44,031 nucleotides of DNA from Pigoraptor vietnamica (taxonomy: Eukaryota; Opisthokonta; Filasterea), in contig CALSCQ010002529.1 of NCBI GenBank assembly GCA_943704525.1, forward strand, positions 1 through 44,031, read 5' to 3'. Below are positions 3,050-36,155 of this stretch, piece after piece (position 1 is the stretch's first letter; every line of letters begins with the position of its first letter). The translations under genes were made by a program, and so were the position numbers. Under the pieces are notes generated by a model. That model did not search any database. It was given only the letters and a program-made list of their open reading frames with translations, and had not been told where the DNA came from.

Positions 3050-4930
3050 GCCACACGTCGCGGTGGTATTTTAGTGTTGCATCCGGCGTGCAACAAGCTC
3101 CGACACGGAGCCTCAGGACGCGTACATGCGAGTTATTGCGGCGTCGGCTCCGCAACCTCACGCACGTGGCAGTGGTCCGGCTGCACACTTCAGGGCAGGC
3201 CCCGGCAGCGGACGCCCCACTGAGCGTGCCCCTCAGGCGGCGCTACGCGGCTACGCTGGCCGGTTCCCGCCCTCAGCTCAGGAAAGCCGGTAATGTTGGC
3301 GTCAAGACTACCTCCTACGGAAGGGCAGGGAGGCACGCCGTCTGGGATTGAGCAAACCGACGCAACATTACCAGTCGACCGAAGCGGCAGCTCTGCGGGA
3401 TTTCCCCGTTGCCGGAGACGACGCGAGTTTTCAGGGCAATAAGAGGTCGTACACAACGGCGAAAAGGCCGCAGGCGCGTGCAGGTGAATGTGCACAAAAG
3501 AATCGGATGGCATATCGAGATGAGATTCATGCACACCGCGAGTGTGAGGACCACGGAGCCACCTCTGGGATTAAATTCGATCTCATACATTTTTCATAGT
3601 GAACGCCGTTATTTTCAAATTATTCGGGCCATTCTTTCTTCTCGCAATCCAAAATAAGTAGTGGAATGTCCATGCATCTTAATGGCTCATTATGCACATT
3701 CCTGCGCACGTGACCTGCTTATGGTCGAATTTCGACGGTGGCCGAGAGTCGAGGGCTTGCCCTCACTCGGACCGTGTCCGGCTCCTGGCAGTCACCAAGT
3801 TACTCAGCACCAGCACCGTGAGTCGGCCTCGGCCCGCTGGTTCCGGCGTACCACTGACTGCGCTAATCAGCTGAACGACCTGGTCCGGGCCGGGCCCACG
3901 GCACGGTTCGTGGAAAGGCCGCACCCGGTTGGCCGGCAGTGGCTGAGCTCACTCCGTGACTGTTGCGCCAGCCACGGGATCCGGGGTCGCCCGGACGGGC
4001 CCGGCGGCCCGTCAGCTACTCTGATCCGAGCCCGGCGGCCGCGCCCGGGCGTCCGGGCGGTGGTGGCATTGTCCACTGGCAACTGGCGCAGTGTACGGGG
4101 CCGGACCACCGAGTTGCGTAAAGTTTGCTCGGCTGTCGCGAGCCGGCCGATCTGAAATAATGCCCGGCAGCTGGCTACTCTCGATTACGGAATCTGCTAC
4201 AGAAGGCACGGCAATGAGAGAGCCGCTCCTAATATGCGCCGTTATTGTTTCAGTCCCAGTTCATTCAAGCATTCACAAATACCAACTCACCGGCGCTGCC
4301 GACGCGCACTATTAATAGATAGGTGGCTGCGTGTTTACTCTTATTGCCCGTGTTCGAATTACGCACACGCACGGCCGGCTGCCGTGCACCTGTCCAGTCT
4401 CAACAATACAGCTGCATATTAAAGGCTCCCAAGTTGTCTCCCGGCAGTCGTATGTTTCCGAGTCAGTCACACTGTCATGCTACACACAAGCACAACGCCG
4501 AAACGCTGCACGAGCACGCTTTCATGCACACGCATTTACGCCGAAATGCACGCTGCGTCCACTTCCCCATCTGCCCAGCACCGGAATGACCGAGAAAAGG
4601 CGTTCGGACCAGGAGTACCCCTGGTTCGGACTGTCAGGCGGCTGGTCGTGGACACGGCATCAAGGCACGCCCTCATCAATTGCAAATCTGTCCGCACTGT
4701 CTTGAAGCCAGCGAACCATGAAAGGCGCGCAAGAACAGGACATCACAGCCATCTTTGCGACGCGCATGACACTCCCTCAGCGGATGCGCGAACGCCGAAG
4801 TCAATGGCCGCCTGCAACACGTCCTCCGCCCGGATTTGGCCCACTGAGTCAAGCGAAACGGCCGGCATATAATCTCAATGCCGAGGGCTCGCTCAAGCGC
4901 AAACGTGTCGTAATTGACCGAGGTACCGCC
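3050..4930. other. Gene-poor intergenic region
   Basis: There is no reading frame with recognisable homology, conserved splice structure or RNA gene here. The stretch about 3200-3650 is comparatively AT-rich at its right end. The stretch about 3770-4140 is very GC-rich with many GGCC, CCGG and CCGGGC words, and reads like degenerate repeat or decayed mobile sequence, but no terminal repeats or transposase are visible. The promoter of the leftward epimerase/glycosyltransferase gene must start here. Confidence 0.5.
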
Positions 4931-4933
4931 TCA

Positions 4934-5290
4934 TCACCGACTTGAAGCAGCCTGCCCGTCCCCGCACTCAGTCCCCGCACTCAGGACGCGCGCCGGCGCA
5001 GTCAAGACGCCGGGGTTCTTCACGGGGGCCGCCCGCACGAAGCGCATGTCCCGCACGTGCGCAAGAGCCTCCTTGAGCTCGGGGCGTACGGACCAGTCCA
5101 AGATGTCGGGCCGGTTCGACTCGAACCACCGAACAAAATCGAGGCGACCGTCCCGCACCGCCGTGAGGTACGCAGCCCGCAGCTCGTCGTCCGTCGGGCC
5201 CCGTGCTCGAATGCCCAATGAAAGTACTGCCACCGACGAGATTGGACGGCCGTGTTCAGCGACACGCGCTGACCGCCGGCGCCATCATCT
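4934..5290 (-). pseudogene. Decayed ankyrin-repeat-like fragment
   Basis: On the minus strand two reading frames together give an ankyrin-like pattern. One frame (from about 5265) reads AVQSRRWQYFHWAFEHGA. The other (5233-4934) reads DELRAAYLTAVRDGRLDFVRWFESNRPD followed by LKEALAHVRD. The A..G.LDFVRW core is typical of the divergent ankyrin repeats found in large protist families. The two parts are offset by one base, there is no clean start, and conservation is lost towards 4934. A 14-bp word, GAGATTGGACGGCC, occurs at about 5237 and again at about 5351, which suggests the fragment was once part of a repeated array. I read it as a broken copy and not a functional gene; a chance match is possible. 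Confidence 0.35.
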
Positions 5291-32431: not shown

Positions 32432-33009
32432 CGCAGACCAAGCACACCACGCACACTCAAACCACCGGTCACAGAAGAGCGCACGGCAGACACGTAGCCT
32501 CTACGTGAAGAGCGGAGCGCAAGGGACACCCGCCCGCACGAGCGGGCAGGCAGAACCCGGTACTGTCGCGTGCGACGTCAGTGACCGATCACATGCACTC
32601 GTGAGATTACAGCTGTGTTTCAGACGCCAGGGAGAGGCGCACGGCCAAACATGAACACACACATACACACGCCCCCCAGGATAGTGCGCTCGCGTGCGAA
32701 TCGCAATGAAGTGAGCGATGGAACCTTCAGACTCTGTCGTCGCTGCACTGTTGACGCGGCCGGAACGCCAGAAGTCACGTGATGAAGCCGAATCTAGCGA
32801 TATCTCGGCCAAATATTTCGCGTTGTCACGGTTTTTGGGGCCTGTTACACCGAGTGGTGAGCAATGAGTCAAGCACCCTCCCTTCAGTCTTCCACTCGAA
32901 GCACTCTAAACAGGCGCGTCTCTCATTGTGCGACGCACTAGAGACGCGCTTTTATTACAGCACATTCTTTTCCTCAGACACACGCTTGATCTCGCGTCGA
33001 TCCCCTGCC
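32432..33009. other. Divergent promoter region, VPS15 / deiminase-CtlX fusion
   Basis: 578 bp between two divergent start codons. No reading frame with homology is seen. CA-rich words occur at 32650-32670. No TATA element is obvious. Any shared regulation is only an inference from the arrangement. Confidence 0.5.
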
Positions 33010-36000
33010 ATGTTCCGCTTTGGGGGGCCGTCCGCCCACAGCGACAAGGTATGGGTACCCGAATGTCCTGTGTTTCGTCTGTATACCGCGTGTGTGCATG
33101 TGCCCACGTGTGTCTGTGGCTGATTTGCGTGCTGCAACACAGGGCGATGGCGTTGCTCGCCGCCCGTCCCTTACGAATGTGGCGGCAGAGGCCCACCCGC
33201 ACGTGGACGCCCCGCACCTCCAGGAGCACGAGAACGACGCCGTGCTCTCCGTCCTCATGCACATGCCCAGGTGCGCGGGGTCGGACCACTTGCTGTGGGC
33301 GACACTGGAAGGCGCCGTTTGTGCGTGCGCGAGGCTCAATGGCTGACCCCGACTTGTTGCACCGGCTCGCAGTCTCGCGATCTTCATGGGTAACCTGCAC
33401 CCGATCGGCTCGCTGTACGACTCTGTTGTGGACTTGGAGCAGGCGCACTGGTGTCAGCAGCATCTTGCAGACACGCTCCGCAGCCTCGGCGTGAAGGTGC
33501 ACGAGGTGAAGGACGTGCTGACGTCCGGGTGCGATTCGGACATTCGCCAGCGCATCGAGCTCGAGAATCTCGCGGCGAAGGCGCTGAAGTATGTTCTCGA
33601 CGAGGACTCCGACGGCACGCTCGTGACGGAAGAGGAGTCGAAGCTGCTTGGGGAGGCGTACAAGCGTCGCGTGCTGCAGGCCATGTCGGTGAACCAGCTT
33701 ATCGACATAGTGCTCACGCGGCCCACCATCACGCTGTCCAAGTCGAGCATCAACCACGCGCTCGCGTCCGAGTGCGTCTCGTTCCGCCCGCTCTCCAACC
33801 TCATCTTCACGCGCGACATTCAAATTTGCACACGCAAGGGTGTCATTCTCGCGCGCCCCAATTCCCCCCTGCGACAGCCCGAAATCGAGGTCCTCCGCGT
33901 GTGCCTGCAGCGTCTCGGCATCCCCGTGCTTGGCGAAATTGCCGAACCCGCGACTCTCGACGGCGGCGACTTCATTCTCGCGGGTCCTGACCTCTGCTTT
34001 ATCGGCGTTGGCGGCCGCACGAACGAGCGCGCGGCGCACTTTCTCATGGACGGGGACTATCTCGGCACCCGTCGCGTGGCCGTCGTGCGCGACATCTTTG
34101 ACCGTTCGCAGGAACGCCTCCACCTCGATTTCGTGTTCAACTTTATCGACGAGCGCGTGGTCATTCTGCTCGAGCCCGTCGCGCAGCCCCTCTCCCCCAT
34201 TCGCCGGCTCGTTGACGAATACACCCTCGACGCCTCGTCAGCGGCGGCGGCGTCGTCTTCATCCGGGGCACAAGCGTCGTCGACCCCGCGCCACTACCGC
34301 CTGTCCAGACAGGGCATCGATTTCCACCAGTACCTCCTCGACCAGGGGTACGACGTCATCGTGCTGCCGAACCGGCGCGCGTCGCACCCCATTCACACGC
34401 TGAACCTCGGCGGCGGCCACTTGGTAGTCGAGGACGAGCAGACGGCGCGCGTGCTCGCCGCCGACAGTCGCTTCAAGGGGCGCATTCGCATCCTCCCTTC
34501 GCCGCACAACAACGCGTCGTGCGAGGACGGGCCCATGTGGATTGGCGGCGTGCGCTGCCTGACGCAGGTGCTCACGCGCAAACGCATCGTCGATTGCCCG
34601 GCGGAGGCGCCAAAGGTGCGGGTTCGGCTTAGGGTTGCATGCCTTTGAAATCAACAAGTTTTGCTGCTTTCTCTCTCCCTATCTCTCCCTCTCTTTTCGT
34701 CTCTGTTTTGTTTGCCTTCTGTTTGTGTCTGAACTCTGTATTACTCTTTCACCCCTTCGTTTTCTGTTTGATTACCTTGCTTTATGGCGTGGGCTGCTCT
34801 TGAGCTTACCCTTCCCTCGCTCTCTCAGACCGCGTCGAACCTTCCGTCCAACCTAATTGTGCCGTGCGCGCGCTCGGGTGACCAATCGACCAACACGGTG
34901 CTGATGGTGGCACCCACGGCCTTCTACCAGAACTTGCAGGTGTGCTTTATTCACTCTGGCCAGCAAATGTCGTGCGCAAATGCTTGAGCCCGCCACTCTG
35001 TCCTGTTATCATGCGCCAACCCGTCCGACTTGTGTTCAAGTGCGAGCTGTTCTTTGGTGCGTCTTCAGTGCGTCCTCATTCTCACTCGCTAACCCTCGCT
35101 TCGCACAGGCGGCGGTCGACAACTACTTCATGGTCAGCAACGTGTCCCTCACCAAGCAGCAGATTCAGGCCGCCGCTCTCGCCGAGTTCTCGCTTCTCCA
35201 CCGCCGTTTGTGCGAGAAGGGTGTGCGCATTCTCCTCCACACGCACGAGGTGGGTGTGTGCGCACTGTGCGAGACATTATGCTGCTGTCTTGCTTCCCTC
35301 GTAACCCCTGACTGTCCCTCTCTTCGTGACTTGTGGGTTTGAATCCCACTGTGTTATACTTTGCTTTTCTGTGCCGTTGTCTGACCACTGCCCTCCGTTT
35401 CTTTGCAGGCGTACCACGACACCCCGGATGCCGTCTTCCCTAACAACTGGTTCTCGACGCACGCCGCGGGCGATTGCGTCACGGCGGGCTCCAAGTCGAG
35501 TCCTCGAACGCTCATTCTCTACCCGATGAAGGCGCCCAACCGTAGGAAGGAGCGCAGGCGTTCCGTCATTGCGTCGTTCTCTTCGCACTACGACCGCGTG
35601 ATCGACCTTTCGGGCGACGCCGAAGCGGCGGGGCTGTTCCTGGAGAGCACGGGCTCGCTCGTGCTCGACCGCGTGAAGCGCGTGGCGTACGCGTGCGAAT
35701 CGGAGCGAACGAACGCGGACCTTGCGCGCAAGTGGGCGGCGCTGGTCGGGTACCGCCTGTGTCTGTTCAAGGCGGTGGACGGGTCCGGACGCACCATCTA
35801 CCACACGAACATTGTGATGTCCATGGGGACGCGCGTGGCGGTCGTGTGCGTCGACTGCGTGCCGGAAGACGGCGGCCGCGAGTCGCTGCTCATCGAACTC
35901 GCGGCGAGTGGGCGAGAGCTCGTCGAGATTTCGATGAACCAGATGATGGGCTTCTGCGGCAACGTGCTCGAGCTGCTCGACGGCAACAGGCAGCCGCTGA

Positions 36001-36155
36001 TGGTGATGTCGGACACGGCGTACGACAACTTCACCGAGGCACAACGCGCGCGCATCGAGGCGCTGTGTGCGGGCGGAATAGTGTGTGCGGACATTGCGAC
36101 GATTGAGCAGATTGGCGGCGGCGGCGTGCGCTGCTGCATCGGAGAGCTGTTTTAG
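33010..36155 (+). CDS. Arginine deiminase-like + CtlX-like tandem pentein fusion
   Basis: Six exons, 33010-33048, 33143-33270, 33373-34615, 34829-34939, 35109-35249 and 35409-36155, encode 802 aa. Residues about 50-465 are an arginine deiminase (ADI) domain. It has ADI's extra helical module (about 110-190), then PLSNLIFTRD (195-204), ATLDGGDF (249-256), GVGGRTNERA (267-276), catalytic-type HLDFVF (His306, Asp308) and GGVRCLTQVL with the nucleophile Cys451. ADI hydrolyses arginine to citrulline and ammonia. The usual EGGD reads DGGD (Asp252). Residues about 494-802 match the CtlX family (citrulline utilisation hydrolase): TVLMVAPTAFYQN, DAVFPNNWFSTH (561-572), LYPMKAPNRRKER, GLFLESTGSLVLDR, IYHTNIVMSMG (His686) and IGGGGVRCCIGEL (Cys796). 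Both halves therefore look active. The combination predicts arginine to ornithine through citrulline in one chain. Exons 4-5 link the halves smoothly, so this is one gene. No targeting signal is obvious, and the first exon is the least certain. Confidence 0.88.

Follow-up and report, generated by a model that had tools for sequence, protein, structure and literature searches.

The locus at positions 33010–36155 (+) of the window, by which we mean the whole 44,031-nucleotide stretch of Pigoraptor vietnamica contig CALSCQ010002529.1 that was analyzed, raises the question of whether a single eukaryotic polypeptide could carry out two consecutive steps of arginine breakdown, with an arginine deiminase (ADI) domain followed by a domain of the putative citrullinase family CtlX. 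Six predicted exons join in frame into 2409 nt, or 802 amino acids plus a stop, with GT-AG boundaries at all 5 introns (Table). The earlier note on this DNA had described a six-exon gene with an ADI and then a CtlX domain; the in-frame splice and the Pfam and NCBIfam profile matches bear this out, and the motifs it had singled out (FTRD, HLD, Cys451 in GGVRCL, FPNNWFSTH, LESTG, His686, and Cys796) all lie at the positions claimed. In the host genome (32.5 Mb, 1395 contigs), searched at E ≤ 0.001, ADI and CtlX each matched once, both times at this gene. An N-terminal extension from an in-frame ATG at 32782 was considered and rejected: the stretch 32782–33009 (+) would add 76 residues, but its coding score over those 76 codons is −26.9 bits, and it is therefore probably 5′ UTR. 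Judging from sequence, we think it probable that the locus is a single nuclear gene for an arginine dihydrolase with two domains and two active sites.

Table. Exons, the domain-junction intron, and predicted catalytic or signature motifs of the ADI-CtlX gene (window coordinates).
Feature	Position	Strand	Description
Exon 1	33010..33048	+	aa 1-13; left-out coding score +3.5 bits, short (13 codons)
Exon 2	33143..33270	+	aa 14-56; ADI domain begins; left-out coding score 24.0 bits
Exon 3	33373..34615	+	almost the entire ADI domain, to aa 470; PF02274 match aa 70-338
Intron 3	34616..34828	+	213 nt, GT-AG, 43% T; junction of the two domains
Exon 4	34829..34939	+	linker and start of CtlX domain (STNTVLMVAP); left-out coding score 17.8 bits
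Exon 5	35109..35249	+	CtlX domain; left-out coding score 29.7 bits
Exon 6	35409..36155	+	remaining CtlX domain and stop; NF046062 positions 65-299
FTRD	33806..33817	+	aa 201-204; Asp204 is the guanidino-binding Asp
HLD	34121..34129	+	aa 306-308; His306, Asp308
Cys451	34556..34558	+	predicted ADI-domain nucleophile, in GGVRCL
Asn566-Asn567 of FPNN	35442..35447	+	CtlX signature
His686-Thr687-Asn688 (HTN)	35802..35810	+	CtlX signature
Cys796	36132..36134	+	predicted CtlX-domain nucleophile

The N-terminal half passes the gathering cut-off of the Pfam ADI family PF02274 (118.3 bits against 22.8); against the arcA equivalog model TIGR01078 it scores 54 bits, under a cut-off of 489.1. The five long-type ADI neighbors of bacterial CtlX genes that were scanned against TIGR01078 likewise fall below that cut-off, at 217–245 bits. 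In an alignment with 12 ADI-type proteins its identity is 19–29%, and this divergence leaves room for the notion that catalysis has been lost from the ADI half, which would then serve as a regulatory or structural domain, with activity confined to the CtlX half. In keeping with that notion, the Arg at the fifth position before the nucleophile (GRGGGHC in the solved ADI 1rxx) is absent, with Ile446 in its place, and a structure prediction for the N-terminal half built on an 18-row alignment gave a pLDDT of 41.6, too low to judge the ADI fold. We nonetheless regard an inert ADI half as unlikely. The catalytic and binding residues expected of an ADI are kept, namely Asp204, Asp252 (in LDGGD), His306, Asp308, Cys451, R223, and R271, and the Halobacterium ADI, which is encoded beside carbamate kinase and ornithine transcarbamylase (OTC), also does without the Arg at that position and has Tyr there. 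We take R223 and R271, with R600 and R654 in the C-terminal half, to be the counterparts of the two carboxylate-binding arginines. Asp252 stands where ADIs carry Glu before the GGD-type Gly, and human DDAH1 also has Asp at this site. The earlier note had further pointed to an ADI-specific insertion, and a long insertion of the ADI type is indeed seen ahead of FTRD.

When exon 3 was combined with two annotated ADIs into a profile, this aligned to residues 10–419 of 1rxx and placed nine solved ADI sequences ahead of every DDAH, though a profile of just three rows is weighted toward its two prokaryotic members. Exon 3 also matches a haloarchaeal ADI at 72.8 bits, with 25% identity across the middle of the domain, and at the level of sequence this match fits a published tree in which eukaryotic ADIs group, with modest support, with Archaea (PMC5052871). 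That survey records ADI in 40 eukaryotic taxa and reports it as not found in Metazoa, Fungi, Embryophyta, Cryptophyta, and Haptophyta, nor in Sar, bar one questionable exception (PMC5052871).

The C-terminal half scores 269.2 bits against Pfam PF19420 (cut-off 23), and its match to the NCBIfam CtlX model NF046062 covers the full profile, positions 1–299, with an E value of 6.9e-95 and 317.6 bits, just below the curated cut-off of 334; no other NCBIfam family matched at E ≤ 0.001. When set against 80 bacterial CtlX proteins, N566, N567, R599, R600, E602, R654, H686, N688, R795, and C796 are identical in all 80, and the middle position of the HTN motif is Thr in 72 of the bacterial loci and Ser in the other 8. 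In PMC9007349, CtlX is proposed as a citrullinase from fitness data in three bacteria, its signature is given as the replacement of FTRD by FPNN and of HLD by HTN, caveats are attached that include a possible polar effect and the need for argGH, and biochemical studies are called for. The C-terminal half follows that signature exactly. Thus far the earlier note's view of CtlX as a citrulline-using enzyme holds for family and residues, with the citrullinase activity itself a proposal from bacterial genetics (PMC9007349). The pentein fold of this half is supported by an AlphaFold model of exon 6 alone (pLDDT 87.9, pTM 0.86), for which a Foldseek search of the PDB gave ArgZ, AgrE, and human DDAH1 as the best matches, then AstB, at 10–18% identity among the matches listed, with the first ADI only at rank 48. 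Sequence searches of the PDB returned no solved CtlX structure, giving only weak matches to other proteins. Compared as profiles, the N- and C-terminal halves match each other weakly (probability 50%), with their motifs in register.

It could also be that one of the halves uses another substrate, in any of three ways: the N-terminal half might act on methylarginines as a DDAH does, or the C-terminal half might be a dimethylargininase or a complete dihydrolase in the manner of AgrE. In a single-sequence PDB search the best matches of the N-terminal half are to DDAH1, over aa 194–283 (90 residues), with the ADIs behind; PF19420 carries the name DDAH_eukar; and the fold of exon 6, as noted, is nearest to ArgZ and AgrE. 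Set against these points are the ADI-type insertion before FTRD, the ranking of ADIs over DDAHs by the three-row profile, and the residue found two positions past the catalytic His. DDAHs carry Lys at this site, which is that of the second Asp of ADIs, according to PMC11659421. Here the residue is Asp in the N-terminal half (HLD) and Asn in the C-terminal half (HTN), on which ground we reject DDAH for either half, and HTN is no more the HLD of AgrE than it is the Lys of DDAH. A different substrate for one half is thus improbable, and we return to the reading of an ADI followed by a CtlX.

The two domains could, in principle, belong to two closely spaced genes, the ADI gene running to a stop at 34648 and the CtlX gene starting from an ATG at 34784. 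Both alternative frames are open, each domain is complete by itself, and the bacterial relatives are separate genes. However, a two-gene arrangement would require parts of intron 3 to be coding. In a codon-usage model trained on exons 3 and 6, with exons 1, 2, 4, and 5 left out, the extra stretches that separate genes would need, a tail of 10 codons and a head of 15, score −12.4 and −12.6 bits; as low a score was reached by 0 of 748 exon windows of the tail length and 0 of 719 of the head length, each scored with its own exon left out, whereas tail and head were scored with the model from exons 3 and 6. Tail and head, outscored by all exon windows of matching length, therefore score as noncoding. 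Since the windows overlap and all come from one gene, this evidence is good but not independent. Moreover, the splice is in frame with GT-AG sites, the intergenic gap would be just 135 nt, and intron 3 resembles introns 4 and 5; the pyrimidine share of the last 40 nt is 70% in introns 3–5 and 55% in introns 1 and 2. Two separate genes are very unlikely, and we reject them on coding statistics, that is, on codon scores rather than transcripts; the codon statistics favor one gene, with the splicing itself a prediction.

That both families are mainly prokaryotic within the sequences searched might suggest bacterial contamination or an assembly join, but this can practically be dismissed, being ruled out by the five predicted introns, by a third-position GC content (GC3) of 0.84–0.92 in all six exons (0.85 for the whole coding sequence), and by the eukaryotic genes in the window, namely a kinesin motor gene at 12.3–14.2 kb, WDR90/POC16 at 17.2–24.0 kb, and a VPS15-like kinase at 30.0–31.9 kb. 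WDR90/POC16 is a centriole and cilium protein, a weak hint that the organism is flagellated; equally weakly, the eIF5A encoded on contig C229 looks opisthokont-like. Elsewhere in the window, a reading frame at 807–2786 (−) codes for an NAD-dependent epimerase domain and then, without a change of frame, for some 300 residues that have no Pfam match and look like a glycosyltransferase.

Bacterial genomes offer a view of the company that CtlX keeps when it is encoded alone. The sample was the best 80 of at least 590 CtlX loci in genome contigs, and is thus not random. In 31 of the 80, CtlX is preceded on its own strand by an ADI-type gene, matching the arrangement of the fusion; 18 of these genes are of the long type (frames of 477–528 aa, one incomplete) and 13 are shorter and ADI-like. 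In 25 of the 31 loci, no more than 160 nt separate the stop of the ADI-type gene from the point where CtlX homology begins. HxD is present in all 31 and F-x-R-D in 29, the remaining two being interrupted by a contig end. On a quick tree of CtlX, the labels for a long and a short ADI neighbor require only 3 and 2 changes, so the ADI neighbors represent few independent origins rather than 31. CtlX occurs with an ornithine cyclodeaminase gene in 8 of the 80 loci and with an arginase-family gene in 3, in neither case together with an ADI; in 38, the flanks, some of which end at contig ends, have none of the three. Beyond the immediate neighborhood, an ADI match was found in 26 of 35 CtlX genomes, a set chosen by hand from the 80 that takes in loci already known to have an ADI neighbor, against 3 of 14 control genomes.

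Fusion of an ADI to CtlX in one frame was not encountered among these bacteria. CtlX matches were found in 102 of 395 Bacteroidota genomes (100 over the cut-off), giving 104 matches in frames of 296–369 aa; because the frames span only these lengths, none of the 104 can be a one-frame ADI fusion. In the 80-locus sample, CtlX stands behind another domain in a longer frame in 3 loci, and in none is that domain an ADI. In a Saprospiraceae metagenome-assembled genome (MAG), a 657-aa frame (L019:2972-4942, +) carries an arginase domain (PF00491, 186 bits) ahead of CtlX, a different CtlX fusion unless the assembly lost a stop; a Flavobacteriaceae MAG has what looks like its unfused form, with overlapping stop-to-stop frames for an arginase-family protein and CtlX (L018:3049-4011 and 3986-4960, +). 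Two further frames place CtlX after a LAB_N domain (L059:3371-4900, +) and after a histidine phosphatase domain (L077:3269-4894, +), in each case perhaps for want of a stop in the MAG. Six Chryseobacterium loci (L054, L079, L081, L082, L085, and L086) encode, upstream of CtlX, a small ADI-like pentein in which both FxRD and HLD are present, and the only one scanned, that of L081, gave weak and about equal scores against arcA and arginine dihydrolase; this may be an uncharacterized deiminase-like family paired with CtlX. The viral contigs scanned gave one CtlX locus, L091, with a frame of 295 aa.

Descent of both halves of the Pigoraptor protein from a Bacteroidota ADI-CtlX pair was considered and is not supported, the paired ADIs being 20–24% identical to exon 3 (17 compared). 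On the quick tree, the CtlX of the window sits beside loci L011 and L012 in an open fork with long branches, and a search of the genomes carrying those loci (G001 and G002) returned no ADI match.

Genes for the surrounding pathway were sought in the host genome exon by exon, in an assembly that may be incomplete. An arginase gene lies on C232, which by its motifs we take to be a true arginase, and a second ureohydrolase-like gene lies on C229. Six exon matches on C1011, each singly below the cut-off, together presumably represent OTC, as their motifs indicate; an ATCase-like gene is found on C385. Argininosuccinate synthetase is present, and ornithine aminotransferase (OAT) matches at 614.7 bits. 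Carbamate kinase gave no match in the host genome at E ≤ 0.001 in a search that matched 14 of 14 controls (2 over the cut-off), and urease, sought with one alpha-subunit model, gave none in a search that matched 4 of 14 controls. If these absences hold, then citrulline from the ADI step cannot go on to ATP formation through carbamate kinase, nor can urease break down the urea that arginase releases. The earlier note had proposed a bypass of both OTC and carbamate kinase. A route free of carbamate kinase agrees with what the genome search found, but OTC would be bypassed without being missing, and with both arginase and OTC present, the ADI-CtlX protein is not the sole arginine route in this host.

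What, then, would the protein do? In the N-terminal ADI domain, Cys451, His306, Asp204, and Asp308 would hydrolyze arginine to citrulline and NH3; in the C-terminal CtlX domain, Cys796, His686, Asn567, and Asn688 would hydrolyze citrulline to ornithine and carbamate, which would then decay to CO2 and NH3. The nitrogen would leave as ammonia with neither urease nor carbamate kinase involved, and the ornithine would pass to ornithine aminotransferase. The presence of that aminotransferase, with no carbamate kinase or urease match, fits an overall conversion of arginine to ornithine, CO2, and 2 NH3. The two guanidino-binding positions are D/D in the N-terminal half and N/N in the C-terminal half, whereas in AgrE they are N/D (FTAN, HLD), and this pairing in one protein therefore looks like a two-site division of labor. 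That an ADI step is followed by a CtlX step in one polypeptide, as had been suggested, is supported at the sequence level by the catalytic residues, the opposite signatures, and the gene order in 31 of 80 bacterial loci. We infer both activities, the order of the steps, the hand-over between sites, and the physiological role. The fullest form of the proposal, in which two pentein sites take arginine to ornithine, CO2, and two NH3, with citrulline handed from the D/D to the N/N site and kept unmixed with the citrulline of arginine synthesis, is put forward tentatively, and we would give it a little less than an even chance.

The consequences would reach beyond this one gene. The fusion ties the putative citrullinase to a producer of citrulline, which is circumstantial evidence for CtlX activity and, if the proposal is true, would give a physical handle for studying CtlX in the role of citrullinase; it also suggests a eukaryotic route from arginine nitrogen to ammonia without urease or carbamate kinase. 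Taken together, ADI, AgrE, and CtlX give a simple and testable rule for pentein substrates, which we suggest here: whether a site takes guanidino substrates, both kinds, or ureido substrates may depend on which of Asp and Asn occupies each of the two guanidino-binding positions. The families are known, and it is the joining of ADI and CtlX that was not met within the sequences and literature searched. A description of such a fusion was not found in open PMC full text, and annotated relatives may well exist in eukaryotic protein databases.

Among known systems, the N-terminal half is like ADI (ArcA, PF02274) in FTRD, HxD, the Cys nucleophile, the two carboxylate-Arg counterparts, and the long insertion before FTRD, and unlike it in being joined to a second pentein domain, in scoring far under the arcA equivalog cut-off, and in the Ile five residues before Cys. 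The C-terminal half shares with CtlX (NF046062) the FPNN, the HTN, the RC with the nucleophile, and the full-length profile match, but it is fused and scores slightly low (317.6 against 334), unlike the CtlX of Bacteroidota in its frames of 296–369 aa. The Pigoraptor protein resembles the bacterial ADI-CtlX gene pairs, mostly of Bacteroidota, in its two families and in their order; in the bacteria, however, these are separate genes, and none of the 17 paired ADIs compared is close to the N-terminal half (20–24% identity). The classical ADI pathway (ADI, OTC, and carbamate kinase) would have the first step in common, but the host genome has no carbamate kinase match, and the second step here would be an ATP-free hydrolysis. 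ArgZ/AgrE is like the Pigoraptor protein in the proposed net reaction and in the pentein fold of the C-terminal half. AgrE, which we take to perform the net reaction in one active site, carries a C-terminal ornithine cyclodeaminase (bifunctional model NF052231); the protein described here has no cyclodeaminase and two predicted active sites, and the contrast of FTAN/HLD with opposite D/D and N/N sites fits the earlier suggestion of a different solution. If the reading is true, the classical ADI pathway and the dihydrolase with a single site would be joined by a third solution.
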